Origin: Methanolobus psychrotolerans
GTDB lineage: Archaea; Halobacteriota; Methanosarcinia; Methanosarcinales; Methanosarcinaceae
Assembly (NCBI RefSeq): GCF_002243045.1
Contig: NZ_MBKP01000012.1
Span: 1 to 64,000 of the forward strand
Length of the DNA: 64,000 nt
Direction of reading: 5' to 3'
Shown here: one piece after another, positions 33,979 to 43,815 of the stretch
Numbering within the stretch: position 1 is the stretch's first letter
Layout: each line of letters begins with the position of its first letter
The notes under the pieces: model-generated
Database searches by the model: none
Seen by the model: the letters and a program-made list of their open reading frames with translations, nothing else
What the model was told of the DNA's origin: nothing
Position numbers and translations under genes: made by a program

Positions 33979-34743
33979 TTAAAATTGAAATATTTTAAAT
34001 AATAGCAGGCTTGCTTCAAACAAAATAACAAATAACATTGATAGAATCAATTGAGACATAAAAGTTGGATCAGGAGAGATAAAAAAGGTTAGACTACCAA
34101 GAAATGTATACATAAAAAAACGTGATTTTCTAAGCCATTCTAACTCCACTAAACCCATTTTTATTGAGAAAAAAATCAAAAGTGGAAGCTGAAAAGTAAA
34201 ACCAAAACCAAATATTAGGTTTGTTATTGCAGAAAATGTTTTTTGGCAAGAGATTTGCGAACTTGCCAATTCATCAGAAGTGAATATAAAATATTGAAGG
34301 GCATGTGGAATTATTAAACAATATGCAATTGCCGTCCCACAAACAAAAAGAATCAAAGAACATGGAACAACTTTGATTAAAAATATTCTTTCATGCGAGT
34401 AAAGACCACTTTCCATAAATTTAAAAGATTCATACAATAATAATGGAAAATATAAAGCACCTGCAAAAAGAAAAGATACTTTGAATCTCAAAAAAATCCA
34501 TTCTAAAGGGGAATATATTGACATTTGAGAATCAAATGGCACCAACTCCTTCCATATAATCTGAATGATAGAACCTGAAAATGGATACAAGAGCATTACA
34601 AAAAGAAACAACACTCTCAAAAAAAATAGTATTCTTTTACTAAATTCATCTAGATGCTCATTTATAGGCCGTTGAACATCATTTAGTAGATTATATGCAA
34701 TATCTGACATGTGTGATTTTGCTATCTTTTTTGAAGAGATCAT
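33979..34743 (-). CDS. tatC: TatC-type translocase subunit, divergent
   Basis: 254 aa with about six membrane segments. TatC landmarks are YSPLEWIFLRFKVSFLFAG (the S-P-x-E segment, near residue 88), MESGLYSHER (loop after TM2) and SPDPTFMSQLILSMLFVILFEASLL at the C-terminus. The usual T-P-P-D before TM5 reads S-P-D-P. It is clearly diverged from the second TatC in this window. First gene of the minus-strand tat set; divergent from the other tatC with a 163-nt gap. Confidence 0.82.
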   Translation of the reverse strand: MISSKKIAKSHMSDIAYNLLNDVQRPINEHLDEFSKRILFFLRVLFLFVMLLYPFSGSIIQIIWKELVPFDSQMSIYSPLEWIFLRFKVSFLFAGALYFPLLLYESFKFMESGLYSHERIFLIKVVPCSLILFVCGTAIAYCLIIPHALQYFIFTSDELASSQISCQKTFSAITNLIFGFGFTFQLPLLIFFSIKMGLVELEWLRKSRFFMYTFLGSLTFFISPDPTFMSQLILSMLFVILFEASLLLFKIFQF

Positions 34744-34906: not shown

Positions 34907-35638
34907 ATGGCAAATTTTATTGAAAATGCATACCCACTGGTAATAGAAATAAGGAAAAGAATGATTCATTTCTTAATCTGTTTCTTTACTTTTACTATTT
35001 TTTCATTTCAAATTGCTGATTTACCAATAAAAAGAGCCAAAATTGATCTTTTACCTGAAGGAGCCAAAATTGTATATATCAGCCCCATTGAAGTGATTAT
35101 GCTAAAAATAAAAATAGCATTAATATTAGCGTCAATCCTTATGATTCCTATTCTTGCGTATTATACCTTGAAGATTATTTTGAAAAAACAAATTATCAAA
35201 AATATTCCTATTAGTAGATTCTGGAGTGTTGTTTTGGTTTTAACTTCTATCTTTATGTTTTTACTGGGTGCATCCTATGCCTATTTTATTTTGCTTCCGT
35301 TGTTTATCAAGTATCTGTATATAGATGCTGTTTCTTCAGGAGCTATTGCTACTTATTCAATTTTCAATTTTGTTTCTTTTGTATTTCTAGCAACTATTGT
35401 TTTTGGATTAATCTTTGAACTTCCCATTGTTTTAACATTTTTAACTAAAAGTGGATTAATAAAACTTTGTGATCTTATCCATTATAGAAAACATATTTAC
35501 ATTCTATTTCTTGTATCAGGAGCGTTGGTCACACCCCCTGATGTTATTAGTCAGATTATGATATCCTTGCCACTAGTACTGTTTTTTGAAATAACACTAA
35601 TATTTTTACGAATCGTACACAAACCAACAAAGTCTTAG
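34907..35638 (+). CDS. tatC: TatC-type translocase subunit
   Basis: 243 aa with six membrane segments. The canonical TPPDVISQIMISLPLVLFFEI is present (near residue 208), as are YISPIEVIMLKIKIAL (near 58) and FELPIVLTFL (near 170). Two different TatC proteins suggest either different substrates or a heteromeric receptor. The coding region is very AT-rich compared with the housekeeping genes on both sides. Confidence 0.88.
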   Translation: MANFIENAYPLVIEIRKRMIHFLICFFTFTIFSFQIADLPIKRAKIDLLPEGAKIVYISPIEVIMLKIKIALILASILMIPILAYYTLKIILKKQIIKNIPISRFWSVVLVLTSIFMFLLGASYAYFILLPLFIKYLYIDAVSSGAIATYSIFNFVSFVFLATIVFGLIFELPIVLTFLTKSGLIKLCDLIHYRKHIYILFLVSGALVTPPDVISQIMISLPLVLFFEITLIFLRIVHKPTKS

Positions 35639-35773: not shown

Positions 35774-36607
35774 ATGCCACATAATTTTTTAGACATCCAT
35801 ATTGTAGACTTCTGTCAGTTAGATTGCAAACATTGCTATTTGAAAAAAGAAGAAAACTTCATGCCATTGAGTATGATAGAATCAATCTGCAAAGATTTTT
35901 TGCAAAGCGATTTTCCATTACCATTTAACAACATAATTCTTAGTGGTGGAGATCCTTTACTTCACCCTGAATTTGAGAAAGTATGCAATATAGTCAGAGA
36001 ACACAATGGTTCAATATGTTTGAGCACAAATGGAATTCTAGTCCCAAAATACATAACTACATTTAAAAAGAACGATGGAATCCAGGTGAGCATCGACGGA
36101 AATGAAGAAATTCATAACTCAATCCGTGGCAATGACAATTACAAAGATGCTGTAAAAGCTTTGAAACTACTGGATGAACATGGAATCAGACATAGTATTG
36201 GATTTACGATCAGTCAACTGAACAAAGATTGTATAGATCATGTAATCGATCTTTGCATTGAAACTGGGGCGTCGACTCTAAACTGCAACATTTACCAGCC
36301 CCTCAACTACGATTTCTTACAACCGATCACATTCAAAGAATGGTTGGATATAAGGGAATATGCAGCAAAAAGAGCGGAGAAAGAAGGGATATACCTTCCA
36401 AATGTCTACATCGAAAAAGGATGTTGTGCTGGAATACTCGGAATTTCTGTTCTGACTGATGGCACTTACTGGGACTGTTCCCGGAATCAACAAGTGATCG
36501 GGAAATACCCGCAAAAAATCAATGATGTTCTTTTTTGGGACAATATCAGAAATGTAAAACCAAGGGACCAATTTGAAACATGCTGTAGGAGTTTAGTCTA
36601 TGAATAA
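35774..36607 (+). CDS. Radical SAM enzyme with SPASM-like C-terminus
   Basis: 277 aa. The cluster motif is FCQLDCKHC (C14-x3-C18-x2-C21); SGGDPLLHP (near residue 58) is the SAM-binding GGE-like motif. The C-terminus has CCAGILGISVLTDGTYWDC (near residues 216-235) and a final CC pair (near 271), the C-x-x-G...D-G...C layout of SPASM/Twitch domains that hold auxiliary Fe-S clusters. Such enzymes mostly modify ribosomally made peptides or proteins. It opens a run of eight tightly spaced genes, including a Tat substrate and a W-x-x repeat protein. Confidence 0.82.
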   Translation: MPHNFLDIHIVDFCQLDCKHCYLKKEENFMPLSMIESICKDFLQSDFPLPFNNIILSGGDPLLHPEFEKVCNIVREHNGSICLSTNGILVPKYITTFKKNDGIQVSIDGNEEIHNSIRGNDNYKDAVKALKLLDEHGIRHSIGFTISQLNKDCIDHVIDLCIETGASTLNCNIYQPLNYDFLQPITFKEWLDIREYAAKRAEKEGIYLPNVYIEKGCCAGILGISVLTDGTYWDCSRNQQVIGKYPQKINDVLFWDNIRNVKPRDQFETCCRSLVYE

Positions 36608-36652: not shown

Positions 36653-37774
36653 ATGAACAGACGTACGTTCCTGAAAGCAGTCGGCGCTGCAGGGGCTGCC
36701 GCATGCATGGGAACATATAAAGCAAAAATCGTAGATGCTCTGGATCTTGCAAAAACCGGAACCACCAAAAGCAGGATTTATGTTTTGGCATCAATCCCCA
36801 ATGCCGGGAAAACAACTACTGCAATATCCATGAAAAATTATTTTGAATTGCAAGGACTGAAGGTTGCATGTCTGCAATCTATCACCAAAGGCTATCAGGA
36901 TACAGGAAAATACCTTAAGTACACGCATGATCATTTCAGCATTCCGATTGAAGCCACAAGAAGTAAAGAAGCACTTGAAAAGTGGCTGCCATACAGATAT
37001 GATATATTCATTCTGGAAGTAAGTTCAGCTTACGTATTTCCGATATCAGCCGCAAGGATTAGTCTGTTTGATAATATAAATGAACTAATGCCTTATGACA
37101 TGAGTGAGGATTGGGAGGGGAATCTTGCTAAAAAATATAAAAATCTCCCTTTTTTAGATGTCGTCCGGAACAGAAACGTAAAACCCGTCATAACCAAATC
37201 ACCCGAGAAAATGAACTGCGCTTCTGTAGATTCCAATTTTATGATCCACAATATTGATGATTTCGTCTATGACGGAGTTGAACCAAAGATGGTGCTTCCA
37301 AAAAGTGACAAAAAGGTCATAGCTGTCGGAGCAATTCCTGCTGAGTTCTGCAATATGTATCCAAATTTGAAATGGTACGATTATGACTATCCCGAATTCT
37401 ACAATGCCTACAAAGAAGAAGATTATGATTTTGCAATAATCGGTGATTGTAACAACGACGAGATGAAATTTTCTTTCAGACCGGACAAGCCCGTTATCTG
37501 TTACAAACCGTCAGTATACATTGACAATTTGGTTAGATTCCCAAAGGCATCAGCATCGACAGACAAAAATGAAATTTACTCCCTTGTAAAAACAGCAAAT
37601 ATTGGCACTCACTTGGGAAAAGATGGCTGCCGCTATGAAGCTTTCAACAATAAATACTGGATCAAGCATGAATTCATGAATCTGGATACAATCACTACAG
37701 ACAATAACATAATATTTTGCAACGGATGGGTTTTACCACAACATCTGATTCAAGAAGGATATATGGAGGTATAA
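36653..37774 (+). CDS. Tat-signal (lipo)protein with P-loop NTPase domain
   Basis: 373 aa. The N-terminus NRRTFLKAVGAAGAAACMG is a textbook twin-arginine signal (R3-R4) with A-A-A-C18 as a possible lipobox. Residues 41-90 resemble the dethiobiotin-synthetase/CobQ-like P-loop fold: RIYVLASIPNAGKTTT (A46-x5-G52-K53-T54) then GLKVACLQSI. The rest is unrecognised. A nucleotide-binding fold on a Tat precursor is odd, because ATP is not expected outside the membrane; it may bind another ligand. The next gene starts 2 nt after its stop. Confidence 0.78.
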   Translation: MNRRTFLKAVGAAGAAACMGTYKAKIVDALDLAKTGTTKSRIYVLASIPNAGKTTTAISMKNYFELQGLKVACLQSITKGYQDTGKYLKYTHDHFSIPIEATRSKEALEKWLPYRYDIFILEVSSAYVFPISAARISLFDNINELMPYDMSEDWEGNLAKKYKNLPFLDVVRNRNVKPVITKSPEKMNCASVDSNFMIHNIDDFVYDGVEPKMVLPKSDKKVIAVGAIPAEFCNMYPNLKWYDYDYPEFYNAYKEEDYDFAIIGDCNNDEMKFSFRPDKPVICYKPSVYIDNLVRFPKASASTDKNEIYSLVKTANIGTHLGKDGCRYEAFNNKYWIKHEFMNLDTITTDNNIIFCNGWVLPQHLIQEGYMEV

Positions 37775-37776
37775 AT

Positions 37777-38730
37777 ATGGGATGGATTAGTTGGGGAAAC
37801 TGGAACGATTGGGGAGAATGGAGCGATGTTCCTCCGCATCATGACACAATAATGATAAATACGACATATGGAGATTGTATTGATGTTTATGCAGCTCTTG
37901 AAGTAAAAGTATATAGTGGCGTATGGCATGAAAGCATTCAAAAATGGCTTTATGACTGCAGACTTGAATCGCTAGGAAAAGTAGCATTAAAATCAGGAAT
38001 GCCTCCTTATGTCATGAATTGGGGTTCCTACTATAGTAAAATAGAGCTTGATAAAGTAGTAAGTGGTGATTCTGCATTCGAATTCGGTCAACTTCCTGTT
38101 AATAATAATTTTGGAGCATTCCCATATGGTGGCAGTCAGCCCAGTTATGCATCAGTGTATGAAATTCTAGAAGACCTCATTGAATTAGGGATAGGTCAAA
38201 TGAATAAATATCTAGGCTTTTTAATGTCTGTATCTAACATTATAAATGAATTAAGAGGAGAACCTGATGATTTAAATGCTGGAACAGAGGAGCAACTGGG
38301 AGAGTATTATTACTATGAATACCCATATAATGGTGCTTTTTCTCCAGAAAGTAGTTGCTGGTATTGTTGGACAATGCTAGCTAAGAGTAATGAGTATATT
38401 AGATTTAGATTGAAATATAGTTTTGAAGGTTATGAATTTCTTAATCCGCCAAATCCAGGACAACTGATTGGTATTCGTGATACAACCGTATGGACTATTC
38501 CAACACCTCCTCCGGGTGAGACTATGACTGCTAAAGAAAAAGAGATATATGGATTAATAGAAGTTCCTGTCAATGAAATAGATAAACGCTCTCAAGAATT
38601 CCGCTTGCCTTCTGAAGTGATAAATAACTGTAAAAAGTCAGGAAAACCACTCTATGTTATAACTAATCCTGAAGCAAAAATAGAATCAAGTAAAATTGCA
38701 AGGTACACTAAAAAACTAGGTGATGTTTGA
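37777..38730 (+). CDS. Trp-x-x repeat protein, possible radical SAM substrate
   Basis: 317 aa from the ATG at 37777, with GGAGGT 8 nt upstream; an in-frame upstream ATG inside the previous gene lacks support. The N-terminus MGWISWGNWNDWGEWSD has Trp at positions 3, 6, 9, 12 and 15, each followed two residues later by a polar residue (S, N, D, E, D). That spacing matches peptides turned into three-residue cyclophanes by radical SAM enzymes. The rest has no known domain; it includes SSCWYCW near residue 188. No signal peptide is seen. It is coupled to the Tat-substrate gene, so Tat hitchhiking is conceivable. Confidence 0.7.
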   Translation: MGWISWGNWNDWGEWSDVPPHHDTIMINTTYGDCIDVYAALEVKVYSGVWHESIQKWLYDCRLESLGKVALKSGMPPYVMNWGSYYSKIELDKVVSGDSAFEFGQLPVNNNFGAFPYGGSQPSYASVYEILEDLIELGIGQMNKYLGFLMSVSNIINELRGEPDDLNAGTEEQLGEYYYYEYPYNGAFSPESSCWYCWTMLAKSNEYIRFRLKYSFEGYEFLNPPNPGQLIGIRDTTVWTIPTPPPGETMTAKEKEIYGLIEVPVNEIDKRSQEFRLPSEVINNCKKSGKPLYVITNPEAKIESSKIARYTKKLGDV

Positions 38731-38746
38731 TTTTGGGATTTACAAC

Positions 38747-39799
38747 ATGAAATATTTTCTTTACTTTTTTTTATTGATGCTACTTCTACTGGCAAGTATT
38801 CATTTTGTAAATGAAGCCTACGAGCAAGAAACTGCAAGAGAGAACGCACGCATTGCAAATGAAACAAAGCAACAGATGGAGTACATAAAGAACCTGCAAG
38901 CGGAATCAGAGAGAATCTTCACTCAGGATCAGGATGTACAAAATCTTCTGGATGAGAACACCAATTTTAGAGTCTATGAAATAATCCACAATGATAGTTT
39001 GATAGAATACATTTACATCACTGGATTTCATCTTCAAAAATTCAAATATGCAAGAGAACCCAGAATGGTTAACGGGACTGTTTACAAATTCTACATCAAT
39101 CTGAACAATAAGAATGTCATCAATCAAAATGATGAGACATTTGTTTCTTTTAACCAAAGTTCTCATGTACTGATACTTAAAAACGATTTTCATAAAGAAA
39201 AGGATGGGATAACTTTTGATTCGTCCATGATCACATTTGTGTGGCCGGGTGTTCACCATTATGACAGATTGGTGTATGATTACAAGATAGTAGGACATCA
39301 GAACATTGATACTTCTTCCAGTTCCACTAAAAGACCCGCAATGGAGTATCAACTACAAATCAAAAAAATGGATGATACGGATAGTATATATCTTCCACTT
39401 GATACGACCGGAGACAATGTACGCATCCTATCTGGTAACAATAGCCTTTCAGCTAAATATTGGAAAGATGAGAGAAAAAGGGAAGTAAATACTCTGACAA
39501 TGTCCTTGCCGGGAAAAGTTAGCTATCCTATCGACTGGTATTATAGATGGAATGTCGGAAGTGGCACTAACCAGACCATTGTTTTTGATATCGATATGAC
39601 AGTTGATGGATGGATCAACAATGCCGAACCTAAGGAATTGTGCGGATGGAGATTCATCATAGAGACACCTCCGAATACTAATGATATGTCAGAAGAGGAG
39701 ATGATGGAACTTGGGGTATGGCCAACAAACGGTTTTGGGAATTTCTATCCACTCTCAACTACAATTGTCAAAAAAGGGGAATGGCTGGAAAATGCATGA
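38747..39799 (+). CDS. Membrane-anchored island paralog A
   Basis: 350 aa from the ATG at 38747 (MKYFLYFF); upstream ATG/GTG codons in frame are less likely because paralogs begin at the equivalent position. An N-terminal membrane anchor (residues 4-21) is followed by a coiled-coil segment (about 25-65, rich in E, Q, A and N) and a large extracellular domain with several N-x-S/T sequons. Conserved blocks shared with the two paralogs include GFHLQKFKYAREPR, NQTIVFDIDMT and the C-terminal STTIVKKGEWLEN. The fold is unknown. Confidence 0.78.
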   Translation: MKYFLYFFLLMLLLLASIHFVNEAYEQETARENARIANETKQQMEYIKNLQAESERIFTQDQDVQNLLDENTNFRVYEIIHNDSLIEYIYITGFHLQKFKYAREPRMVNGTVYKFYINLNNKNVINQNDETFVSFNQSSHVLILKNDFHKEKDGITFDSSMITFVWPGVHHYDRLVYDYKIVGHQNIDTSSSSTKRPAMEYQLQIKKMDDTDSIYLPLDTTGDNVRILSGNNSLSAKYWKDERKREVNTLTMSLPGKVSYPIDWYYRWNVGSGTNQTIVFDIDMTVDGWINNAEPKELCGWRFIIETPPNTNDMSEEEMMELGVWPTNGFGNFYPLSTTIVKKGEWLENA

Positions 39800-39817: not shown

Positions 39818-40876
39818 ATGAAACAAAAACATTGGATTCTAGCTCTTGCTCTGATACTTCTACTGCTAGCAGGCATTTATGTTATAAATGAAGCACAAGA
39901 ACAGGCCATTGAAAGAGAGAACGCACGCATGACAAATGAGACAGAGCAACAGATGGAATACATACAGAGCCTGCAAGCAAAGTCTGAAATGATATTTGTC
40001 CAAGACCAGAATGTGCAGGACTTACTAAGTGAAAACACCAGTTTTAGAGCTTATGAGATAATCCACAATGAGAGTATTGTAGAGTACATTTACATTGTTG
40101 GATTCCATCTTCAAAAATTCAAGTATGCAAGAGAACCCAGAATTGTCAACGGGACTGTTTACAGATTCTACATAGATCTGGACAATAAGAATGTTACCAA
40201 TGGAGATGATGAGAACTTCGCCTATTTTAATCAAAGTTCCAATCTACTGATACTTAAAGACAATGTCTATAAAGAAGAGGAAGGAGCCTCTTTTGAATCG
40301 TCAATGACAATAAATGTCTGGCCGGGTGCTCACCATTATGACGGATTGGTGTATGATTACAGGATAGAGGGAAATCAGAACATTGGTACTTCTTCCAGTT
40401 CCACTCGAAGACCTGCAATGGAGTATCAACTGAAAATTAGAAAAGTGAATAGTGCTGAAAGCTTCTACCTATCGTATGACAGTACCGGAAAAAATGTAGA
40501 GGTTCTGTCTGATAATGCTAGCATTTCATCAAGGTATTGGAAAGACGAGAGAGGGAGGGAAACAGAGTCTTTGACAATATCTTTGCCAGCAAAGATCAAG
40601 TACCCTCTGGACTACCTTTACAAATGGTTTGTTGTAGCTGGCAACAACCAGACTATTGTTTTTGATATCGATATGACAGCTGACGGATGGAGTAACACTG
40701 GCGGACCTGAAGAGCTGTACGGATGGAGATTTATCATAGAGACGCCTCCGAATACAAATGATATGTCAGAAGAGGAGATGATGGAACTTGGAGTATGGCC
40801 AACAAACGGCTTCGGAGGTTTCTATCCTCTCTCAACTACGATTGTCAAAAAAGGGGAATGGCTGGAAAATTTGTGA
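39818..40876 (+). CDS. Membrane-anchored island paralog B
   Basis: 352 aa. Same layout as paralog A: anchor (MKQKHWILALALILLLLAG), coiled coil, then the same domain, with GFHLQKFKYAREPR, SSSSTRRPAMEYQL, NQTIVFDIDMTADGW, FIIETPPNTNDMSEEEMMELGVWP and STTIVKKGEWLENL. Identity to A is high along the whole length, as after a tandem duplication. It starts 18 nt after paralog A. The function is unknown; probably a surface-exposed structural or binding protein. Confidence 0.78.
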   Translation: MKQKHWILALALILLLLAGIYVINEAQEQAIERENARMTNETEQQMEYIQSLQAKSEMIFVQDQNVQDLLSENTSFRAYEIIHNESIVEYIYIVGFHLQKFKYAREPRIVNGTVYRFYIDLDNKNVTNGDDENFAYFNQSSNLLILKDNVYKEEEGASFESSMTINVWPGAHHYDGLVYDYRIEGNQNIGTSSSSTRRPAMEYQLKIRKVNSAESFYLSYDSTGKNVEVLSDNASISSRYWKDERGRETESLTISLPAKIKYPLDYLYKWFVVAGNNQTIVFDIDMTADGWSNTGGPEELYGWRFIIETPPNTNDMSEEEMMELGVWPTNGFGGFYPLSTTIVKKGEWLENL

Positions 40877-42038: not shown

Positions 42039-42482
42039 ATGAAACTAAAAAGATCAGGTATGATTGCAGGAGCTTTAGTATTGCTCATTTTTGGATTTTA
42101 TATTTACAGTATCTTCCCTTATATTTTATTTGGGTCTCTGTTTCCCCTTTACGATATATCTAATCAAGACGATACGCGACATGAGGTTGTTGTGGAGGTA
42201 TTTGGAGCATTCAACCAATCCATAATCAAAGAAAAGTATTCAATCGGACCCAGAGGGAGGGAATCTTATCCAAAAACATTCTGGTTCAAATTTAACCGAT
42301 GGACAGATTACAGGTTTGAGGTCACTCTGGATAATGAAACCGTAAGGACATACGAGGGAAAAATCAACAACTTCAATCAGGTCCACATCAGGTTGTATGA
42401 TATGGATAGCGATTATTATCCAATTATTGTGGATGAAATGTCCTATGAACTTGGAAAAGGAATAAAGTGGGACTATCATTAA
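42039..42482 (+). CDS. Small membrane-anchored protein of the island
   Basis: 147 aa. There is an N-terminal membrane segment (about 8-35) and then a beta-rich domain (residues 45-147) with HEVVVEVFGAFNQSIIKEKYSIGPRGRESY and YRFEVTLDNETVRTYEGKI, resembling a small immunoglobulin-like sandwich; no family is recognised. Its stop is 2 nt before the start of paralog C, so it belongs to the same operon and probably sits outside the membrane. Confidence 0.65.
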   Translation: MKLKRSGMIAGALVLLIFGFYIYSIFPYILFGSLFPLYDISNQDDTRHEVVVEVFGAFNQSIIKEKYSIGPRGRESYPKTFWFKFNRWTDYRFEVTLDNETVRTYEGKINNFNQVHIRLYDMDSDYYPIIVDEMSYELGKGIKWDYH

Positions 42483-42484
42483 CT

Positions 42485-43648
42485 ATGAAAAAGAGATCAT
42501 TTCTTTTTGTCCTTGCACTGATACTGCTTCTATTATCTGGCACTTTCTTTGTAATTGAGGCTCTGGAACAGGACATTGCAAAAGAGAATGCACGCATTGC
42601 AAATGAAACCAGAGAACAAATGGAGTACATACAGAGTCTGCAAGCGGAATCTGAGAAACTATTCGCTCAGGATCAGAATGTACAAAATCTTCTGGATGAG
42701 AACACCAATTTTAGAGTCTATGAAATAATCCACAATGAGAGCCTTGTAGAGTATATCTACATCATTGGGTTTCATCTTCAAAAGATAAAGTACTCGAGAG
42801 AACCCAGAATTGTTAACGGGACAGTTTACATATTCTACGTCGATCTGGACAATAAAAGTGTCACTAATGAAGATGATGCGAACTTCGCCTATTTTAATCA
42901 AAGTTCCAGGTTACTGAGACTTAAAAATAATGTGCATAAGAAAGAGAAAGGAGTATCTTTTGACTCGTCTATGACAACAAATGTCTGGTCTGGAACTTGC
43001 TTGCCATATAGTAATCGCTGGTTATACCCATTCAGGGTAGAGGGCAATCAGAGCATCAATCGTGTTTCAGATTCTACAAAAATACCTGCAATGAAGTATC
43101 AACTAGAGATCAAAAAGATGACTGACACTGAAAATATGTACCTGACATATGACAGTACCGGAAGAAATGTAGAGATTCTGTCTGACAATACTAACATTTC
43201 ATCAAAGTATTGGAAAGATGAGAGAAAAAAGGAAGTAAACACTCTTACAATGTCCTTGCCGTCAAAAGCTGACTATCCTATCGACTGGTGTTATACATGG
43301 GAAGTCAGAAGTGGTACTAACCAGACTATTGTTTTTGATATTGATATGACAGCTGACGGATGGAGTAACACTGCCGGACCTGAAAAGTTGTACGGATGGA
43401 GATTCATCATAGAAACACCTCCAAATACGTACGGTATGTCAGAAGAGAAAATGATGGAAATTGGCGTATGGCCAACAACCGGTTTTGGAACTTTCTATCC
43501 TCTTTCAACTACGATTGTAAAAAAGGGTGAATGGTTGGCAAAAAATAGCAAGGAACGATCTGCCAACATTGGTTCCAATGAAACCGAGTATCGCCCTCTT
43601 GTTAGTGGCAATATGGCACATGAACTCGAAAAAAGCCTAGCATGGTGA
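42485..43648 (+). CDS. Membrane-anchored island paralog C
   Basis: 387 aa from the ATG at 42485. Same organisation as paralogs A and B, with the anchor MKKRSFLFVLALILLLLSG, the coiled coil, GFHLQKIKYSREPR and NQTIVFDIDMTADGW. It differs by a changed segment around residues 167-190 (Cys-Leu-Pro-Tyr insertion) and a C-terminal extension of about 35 residues with SNETEYRPL. It ends the island operon. Confidence 0.78.
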   Translation: MKKRSFLFVLALILLLLSGTFFVIEALEQDIAKENARIANETREQMEYIQSLQAESEKLFAQDQNVQNLLDENTNFRVYEIIHNESLVEYIYIIGFHLQKIKYSREPRIVNGTVYIFYVDLDNKSVTNEDDANFAYFNQSSRLLRLKNNVHKKEKGVSFDSSMTTNVWSGTCLPYSNRWLYPFRVEGNQSINRVSDSTKIPAMKYQLEIKKMTDTENMYLTYDSTGRNVEILSDNTNISSKYWKDERKKEVNTLTMSLPSKADYPIDWCYTWEVRSGTNQTIVFDIDMTADGWSNTAGPEKLYGWRFIIETPPNTYGMSEEKMMEIGVWPTTGFGTFYPLSTTIVKKGEWLAKNSKERSANIGSNETEYRPLVSGNMAHELEKSLAW

Positions 43649-43741: not shown

Positions 43742-43815
43742 GGGCCGGTAGCTTAGCCAGGCAGAGCGACGGACTCTTAATCCGTAGGCCAGGGGTTCAA
43801 CTCCCTTCCGGCTCG
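43742..43815 (+). tRNA. tRNA-Lys (anticodon CTT)
   Basis: 74-nt cloverleaf. The acceptor GGGCCGG (43742-43748) pairs with CCGGCTC (43808-43814), with G as discriminator. The anticodon arm ACGGA/TCCGT encloses the loop CTCTTAA with CTT. The T arm contains GGTTCAACTCC. No intron and no encoded CCA. It follows the island. Confidence 0.95.

Follow-up and report, generated by a model that had tools for sequence, protein, structure and literature searches.

In Methanolobus psychrotolerans, a radical SAM gene lies in one operon with the gene for a full-length protein that begins with five regularly spaced tryptophans. We consider it rather likely that the enzyme modifies this N-terminal tail, most likely by forming cyclophanes, and that the tail probably helps to target the protein to the cell surface or to hold it there. 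The role of the enzyme as tail modifier is well supported by its gene context, the three-residue cyclophane is the best chemical guess by analogy with characterized enzymes, and for the tail we infer a role in targeting, anchoring or protection.

The DNA analysed here, called the window, is a stretch of 64,000 nucleotides (NZ_MBKP01000012.1, positions 1 to 64,000). The gene order on its plus strand is TatC, radical SAM enzyme, P-loop protein with a Tat signal, cargo protein and membrane-anchored protein; upstream, the opposite strand carries a further TatC and two TatA-like genes. The features discussed below are as follows.

33979..34743, minus strand: second, divergent TatC (PF00902, E 4e-42), given for context
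34907..35638, plus strand: TatC, immediately 5' of the radical SAM gene (PF00902, E 1e-37); may be outside the system
35774..36607, plus strand: radical SAM enzyme P0002, 277 aa, proposed to modify the Trp tail (PF04055; SPASM-like C-terminal cysteines; homologs beside Trp-tail genes)
36653..37774, plus strand: putative P-loop (SIMIBI-type) NTPase P0003, a recurrent partner (N-terminal TAT_signal; alignment; structure model and Foldseek)
37777..37830, plus strand: Trp tail MGWISWGNWNDWGEWSDV, five W-x-[S/N/D/E] units (translation; recurrence in homologous loci)
37777..38730, plus strand: cargo protein P0001, 317 aa, whose body has homologs with Sec signals in other archaea
38747..39799, plus strand: membrane-anchored partner P0004, hydrophobic at its N-terminus (hydropathy; the start is a chosen internal ATG)

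Translation of 37777-38730 gives a product that starts with MGWISWGNWNDWGEWSDVPPHH and bears out what the first-pass annotation had read there, namely Trp at positions 3, 6, 9, 12 and 15 with S5, N8, D11, E14 and D17 two residues on. Also as claimed, the motif belongs to a larger protein and not to a short precursor, since the series starts at residue 3 of 317 with no leader before it. The start codon is sound, because the ribosome site GGAGGT falls within the final codons of the P-loop gene, just 5' of the ATG, and this junction is also present in the related loci inspected. The body of P0001 is export-type and beta-rich. Nothing scored above cut-off in a Pfam and NCBIfam search with P0001, and its structure model is of low confidence (pLDDT 58.5). 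The modelled body weakly resembles beta-pore-forming proteins, a likeness that was set aside as evidence given the Foldseek TM of at most 0.27.

Could five Trp codons in register simply be a matter of chance? At the level of raw DNA, four TGG triplets at 9-base spacing match at 5 places in the organism's own genome, two of them being the P0001 site, and the reversed control pattern matches at 3; the pattern by itself is not extraordinary. Since a few such matches arise by chance, a single Trp series does not carry the argument, and conservation does. All the DNA gathered for the analysis yields 1656 distinct ORFs with a length of 100 aa or more. W..W..W occurs within the first 60 residues of 16 of these, and every one of the 16 is a cargo gene of this system or an overlapping version of such a gene. 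The significance of the series comes from this recurrence in related loci, by which chance was ruled out as its origin.

The enzyme itself is a clear radical SAM protein (PF04055, E 5e-20, 72.7 bits against a cut-off of 29.5) with the cluster motif CxxxCxxC (FCQLDCKHCY). In an alignment of nine family members, with a mean column identity of 77%, this motif and four further cysteines (C217, C235, C270 and C271) are invariant. Of the earlier label "SPASM-type radical SAM", the second half is secure, and the SPASM half is only partly borne out: the four cysteines are SPASM-like, the Pfam SPASM domain was matched in 0 of the 9 close members, and such a match is present in the relative L072 (37% identical). 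Across the phylum, 17 of 393 genomes, with G000 included, encode homologs of P0002; those in the same order are in G071, G118 and G133, and by name they come from Methanophagales, GoM-Arc1, METP1, Methanoperedens, Archaeoglobus sp. JdFR-32, and Methanoculleus, Methanoregula and Methanospirillum MAGs. One more homolog is found in a MAG labelled Marinimicrobia, which is taken to be misbinned. By sequence, P0002 belongs to an unnamed family spread across Halobacteriota (Methanosarcinales, ANME, Methanophagales, Archaeoglobus, Methanoculleus and Methanoregula).

The first-pass annotation had looked to the known cyclophane-forming families for the enzyme at 35774-36607, and a profile search placed P0002 under every curated cut-off. 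It scored 46.8 bits against YhhB (NF041707, cut-off 445) and 51.6 against GrrM/OscB (TIGR04261, cut-off 310); the PapB model gave 52.6 bits (cut-off 340), and the P0002 relative P0007 reached 47.2 bits against FxsB (TIGR04269, cut-off 370). The best-scoring NCBIfam model is TIGR04340, the radical SAM/SPASM protein of the ACGX system, with 90.9 bits against a cut-off of 400 and only the N-terminal part aligned. In the PDB, the nearest structures by sequence are peptide and protein maturases (SkfB, E 1e-15; anaerobic sulfatase maturase, E 5e-6), which match within the radical SAM domain only and act on different substrates. As a prokaryotic viperin P0002 falls well short of the family model (NF038283, 45.8 bits against a cut-off of 180), and a defence role was set aside, the PADLOC pVip match being a generic viperin-model match to the radical SAM domain only. 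Distant relatives of P0002 (31-35% identical) also occur on viral contigs, where they are paired with other radical SAM genes and no Trp tail was seen. On the IMG/VR contigs L093, L094 and L095 these relatives (32-35% identical) have a second radical SAM gene beside them and are followed by a protein of about 106 aa.

The search for homologs of the series beside a radical SAM gene was far more rewarding. Neighbours of the P0002 family carry Trp at every third (sometimes fourth) residue, with D, N or E two positions on, attached to unrelated bodies in proteins of 130 to 950 aa. Because the cargo bodies are mostly unrelated, the Trp tail is the shared element. In type A loci (the window, L060, L065, L066, L067/L085, L082, L084, L086 and L089), the order is radical SAM gene, P-loop gene and then a cargo that starts M-G-(GGG)-W-x-[DEN] with no leader. 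Type B loci (L031, L061, L063, L068, L069, L071 and L073) consist of the enzyme and a cargo that has a leader-like start, found in this type only (INKKRWERWRARQ..REKTYFxCW), followed by W-x-D units. Several type B loci have a second radical SAM gene 5' of the enzyme, two of these with near-threshold Tat signals. The type C cargo of L039/L040 carries HYWGNWGNN ahead of a PKD domain, and that of L072/L074 carries MGGWGDWSGDWSGDWSDWSDWATDW, possibly on mobile elements. As a side observation, the upstream radical SAM proteins of type B at L069:3-1052, L068:8968-9891 and L071:2830-3827 begin RRxFIK or RRNFVK; two score just under the Tat Pfam cut-off and the third not at all, and a Tat-like start is odd for a radical SAM enzyme.

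In most loci without the radical SAM gene, the partner ATPase or the cargo body of the system is found either without a Trp series or with a Sec signal. P-loop genes lacking the enzyme are followed by proteins with no Trp series in L032 (MGGGTMLIT), in L033 (MGGGSTPEL), which is a second P-loop locus of the same genome as the window, in L177 (MGSPPPS, three copies) and in L178 (MGNPPPSPP). Counted by copies, P-loop loci with the enzyme have the series in 10 cases and lack it in 0, versus 0 and 6 for those without (Fisher); counted by locus, the contrast is 9 of 9 versus 0 of 4, with loci that are not all independent and a difference that weakens if decayed loci are counted. Bodies that are 73-82% identical to Methanoculleus cargo, with both genes missing, begin MTQEK or MTPEK without a tail, and no radical SAM gene of the P0002 family was found in their genomes. 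The Pro-rich starts of L177 (MGSPPPSPP) and L178 (MGNPPPSPP) occur in two genera, and are perhaps a different N-terminal tag.

There are exceptions on both sides. Homologs that lack the spacing or the gene had been named as the finding that would count against the idea; those that lack both do exist, as expected for co-loss, and three decayed or disrupted loci keep a tail without the gene. L126 retains MGWIDWGDWNGDWSDV; its P-loop gene is truncated, with a transposase gene directly 5' of it, and a search of its genome gave no member of the P0002 family. In L172 the Trp tail stands before a broken body and the enzyme is absent (genome 89% complete), and L173 has a fused remnant, STWWDWDV, also without it. 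Conversely, L069 has the enzyme and no Trp series, and the cargo of L067 and of L086 has a single Trp each. In L059, L062, L064, L070 and L075 the enzyme or fragments of it are present without a cargo that could be recognised, owing to contig ends, to broken genes or to the lack of any candidate. The first-pass interpretation holds in part. Its enzyme-substrate link is strongly supported, in that the series recurs beside the enzyme on unrelated proteins, is mostly lost without the gene and has a fitting polarity; its cross-link is a proposal, and P0002 stands outside every named cyclophane family.

That polarity can be read from 21 tails with 73 Trp, cut by hand, for which the spacing count is a description and not a test: successive Trp are 3 residues apart (37 times) or 4 apart (16 times), with no other spacing. 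The residue at i+2 is D in 34 cases, N in 15, G in 9, E in 6 and S in 4, and that at i+1 is mostly G, S, A or N. As read from the listed tails, the last Trp has D, N or E at i+2 in 19 of the 21, and the first is never preceded by D, N or E. Since the last Trp keeps its acidic or amide residue and the first never follows one, the order is aromatic residue and then acceptor. Units with G at i+2 include W-S-G-D (L072/L074) and W-N-G-D (L126); a beta-carbon link at i+2 is impossible there because the residue is glycine, and these W-x-G-D units imply that another register may occur.

The position of the tail suggests something of its function. The body of P0001 has homologs in four genomes (L128, L129, L130 and L131) that start with an ordinary Sec-type signal and adjoin no P0002-family radical SAM gene, and the Trp tail thus sits at the place of a signal peptide. 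Likewise, homologs of the L082 body (L139 and L140) have N-terminal hydrophobic segments. With signal peptides called by hydropathy and by eye, N-terminal peak hydropathy is 2.2-2.7 in the signal-bearing homologs of these two bodies; in the cargo proteins the peak is low or inside the body (1.03 in P0001; 1.91 in L126, from residue 32 on). Given the Sec signals of the body homologs and the low N-terminal hydropathy of the cargo, the latter looks, from sequence comparison, like an extracytoplasmic protein in which the signal peptide has been replaced by a Trp tail.

The first-pass annotation, correct about the tail and the radical SAM gene, had left out this interchange of Trp tail and Sec signal, together with the conserved P-loop gene and the downstream membrane partner. 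The model of P0003 (mean pLDDT 76) finds ParF, SRP54/FtsY and CTP synthase domains in Foldseek, and on this modelled fold P0003 is probably an NTPase of the SIMIBI type; some targeting factors belong to the same class. P0003 shares the P-loop GKTTT and the fold of the N-terminal half with SIMIBI NTPases (ParA/ParF, SRP54/FtsY, CTP synthase domain; Foldseek E ~2e-5), and differs from them in a TM of ~0.3, a C-terminal half of its own and the lack of a family model match. A PDB sequence search with the P-loop profile returned weak SRP-type matches only, no family model matched P0003, and a scan of the genome contigs with P0003 found no relatives. P0003-type genes co-occur with M-G-starting cargo whether or not the Trp series is present, and for this reason P0003 may recognise the cargo N-terminus. 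In each of the 16 cases inspected, the gene after the cargo, or after the same body, codes for a protein with a hydrophobic segment at its N-terminus.

The Tat signal of P0003 (36653-36760) has no counterpart in aligned P0003 homologs elsewhere. Related genomes encode N-termini that match it with 53-67% identity over 35-36 residues; of these, only L036 was checked with Pfam, which identified a NiFe-hydrogenase small subunit. In G005, one inspected relative, TatC shares a contig with hydrogenase genes, and the small subunit encoded there has a Tat signal of this kind. Because it is absent from homologs and resembles the hydrogenase signal of relatives, the signal was probably borrowed. A dedicated Tat route was considered and set aside; TatC is present in 8 of the 27 genomes examined in the genus.

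In the mechanism that we propose, P0002 would act on W-x-[D/N/E/S] units in the N-terminal tail of exported or surface proteins, joining a ring carbon of each Trp (i) to the side-chain beta carbon of the S, N, D or E at i+2. Up to five successive three-residue cyclophanes would make the tail stiff and resistant to proteases, the modified tail would bring the body to the cell surface or hold it there, and the P-loop NTPase would be the factor that handles the cargo N-terminus.

How firmly does the evidence point to this product? The enzyme might act on the tail and make something else, such as a bond between Trp and Asp in a different register (from i to i+3, or from Asp to the next Trp), a bond between two Trp, or a ringless change at the Asp beta carbon. 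The spacing-4 units (W-S-G-D-W), with G at i+2 and D at i+3, speak for such a product, as do the position of P0002 outside the named cyclophane families, its best PDB sequence relative SkfB, which is a thioether maker, and the Cys beside the series in type B cargo. We nevertheless regard it as unlikely, since the terminal Trp keeps D, N or E at i+2, the first has none before it, and the spacing-3 tails fit i/i+2 best. Improbable, too, is an unmodified tail, a plain Trp/acidic segment that serves to bind, to touch the membrane surface or to be recognised by the P-loop protein, with the enzyme serving another substrate of the operon. Such a tail would account for the loci that keep it without the enzyme and for L069, where the enzyme has no series beside it. 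It is difficult to reconcile with a series that tracks the enzyme over unrelated bodies and in two kinds of operon, is missing next to P-loop genes that lack the enzyme, and shows a strict acceptor preference at i+2; moreover, the three exceptions are broken loci.

The tail may also have another role. The cargo could be secreted antagonistic or recognition proteins, each with the downstream membrane protein as its cognate, and the cross-linked tail would then protect or dock and would not be a targeting signal. The diverse bodies, the constancy of the hydrophobic partner (16/16), the tandem cargo-membrane-protein pairs of L177 and L084 and the weak beta-pore likeness of the low-confidence P0001 model are in keeping with this; the poor Foldseek match behind that likeness (TM <=0.27, pLDDT 58.5), the failure of P0001, P0003 and P0004 to match any defence or toxin family when searched, and the TolB-like propeller that is the next gene in some loci make it distinctly unlikely. 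Export via Tat, with the cargo as passenger of the Tat-signal P-loop protein and the Trp tail used for binding only, would explain why P0003 has such a signal, why TatC is directly upstream, why the cargo has no signal of its own and why a TatA-like gene lies near the L126 ortholog. With no Tat signal on P0003 homologs elsewhere, and with this one probably taken from a hydrogenase small subunit like that of relatives, the Tat route is very improbable. A bolder extension of the favoured reading, that the modified tail is a new targeting signal, a cross-linked N-terminal tag installed by the radical SAM enzyme in place of the Sec signal peptide, which takes unrelated proteins to the archaeal cell surface or keeps them there and has a dedicated SIMIBI NTPase, is for the present doubtful.

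Radical SAM enzymes are known to cross-link Trp in natural products that are short peptides, and the known triceptide substrates are short precursor peptides. Here, in contrast, the series is the N-terminus of proteins of 130-950 aa, with no leader in type A, and P0002, unlike the triceptide enzymes, falls under the cut-off of every named family. The likeness to the triceptide systems (XncB, OscB/GrrM, MscB, YhhB, FxsB) lies in a radical SAM gene beside repeated aromatic-x-(N/D/S) units, and in the polarity, with the aromatic residue at i and the acceptor, which in triceptides is N, D, S or R, at i+2; characterized three-residue cyclophane enzymes make W-N, W-D and F-S links between i and i+2 (PMC11002830). 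A literature search, with many subscription papers outside it, found no paper describing this archaeal Trp-tail system. If the proposal is true, Trp cross-linking would extend to the N-termini of full-length export-type proteins in methanogens and methane-oxidising archaea and, if proved experimentally, would put this chemistry to a new use at the place of an export signal. The enzyme family, P-loop partner and motif are defined well enough for cloning and assay, and, with Trp tail and signal peptide interchanging on related bodies, a role in targeting lends itself to a direct test.

The downstream end of the operon has features of its own. In the window, three related membrane-anchored proteins follow the cargo (38747-39799, 39818-40876 and 42467-43648), and a tRNA just beyond them, at 43742-43815, is a possible island boundary. 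In L177:5300-9300 and L084:2390-4684, tandem cargo genes alternate with genes for proteins with a single hydrophobic segment, each cargo gene being preceded by a copy of the P-loop gene 3' end with its ribosome site, which looks like repeated duplication of the operon end.
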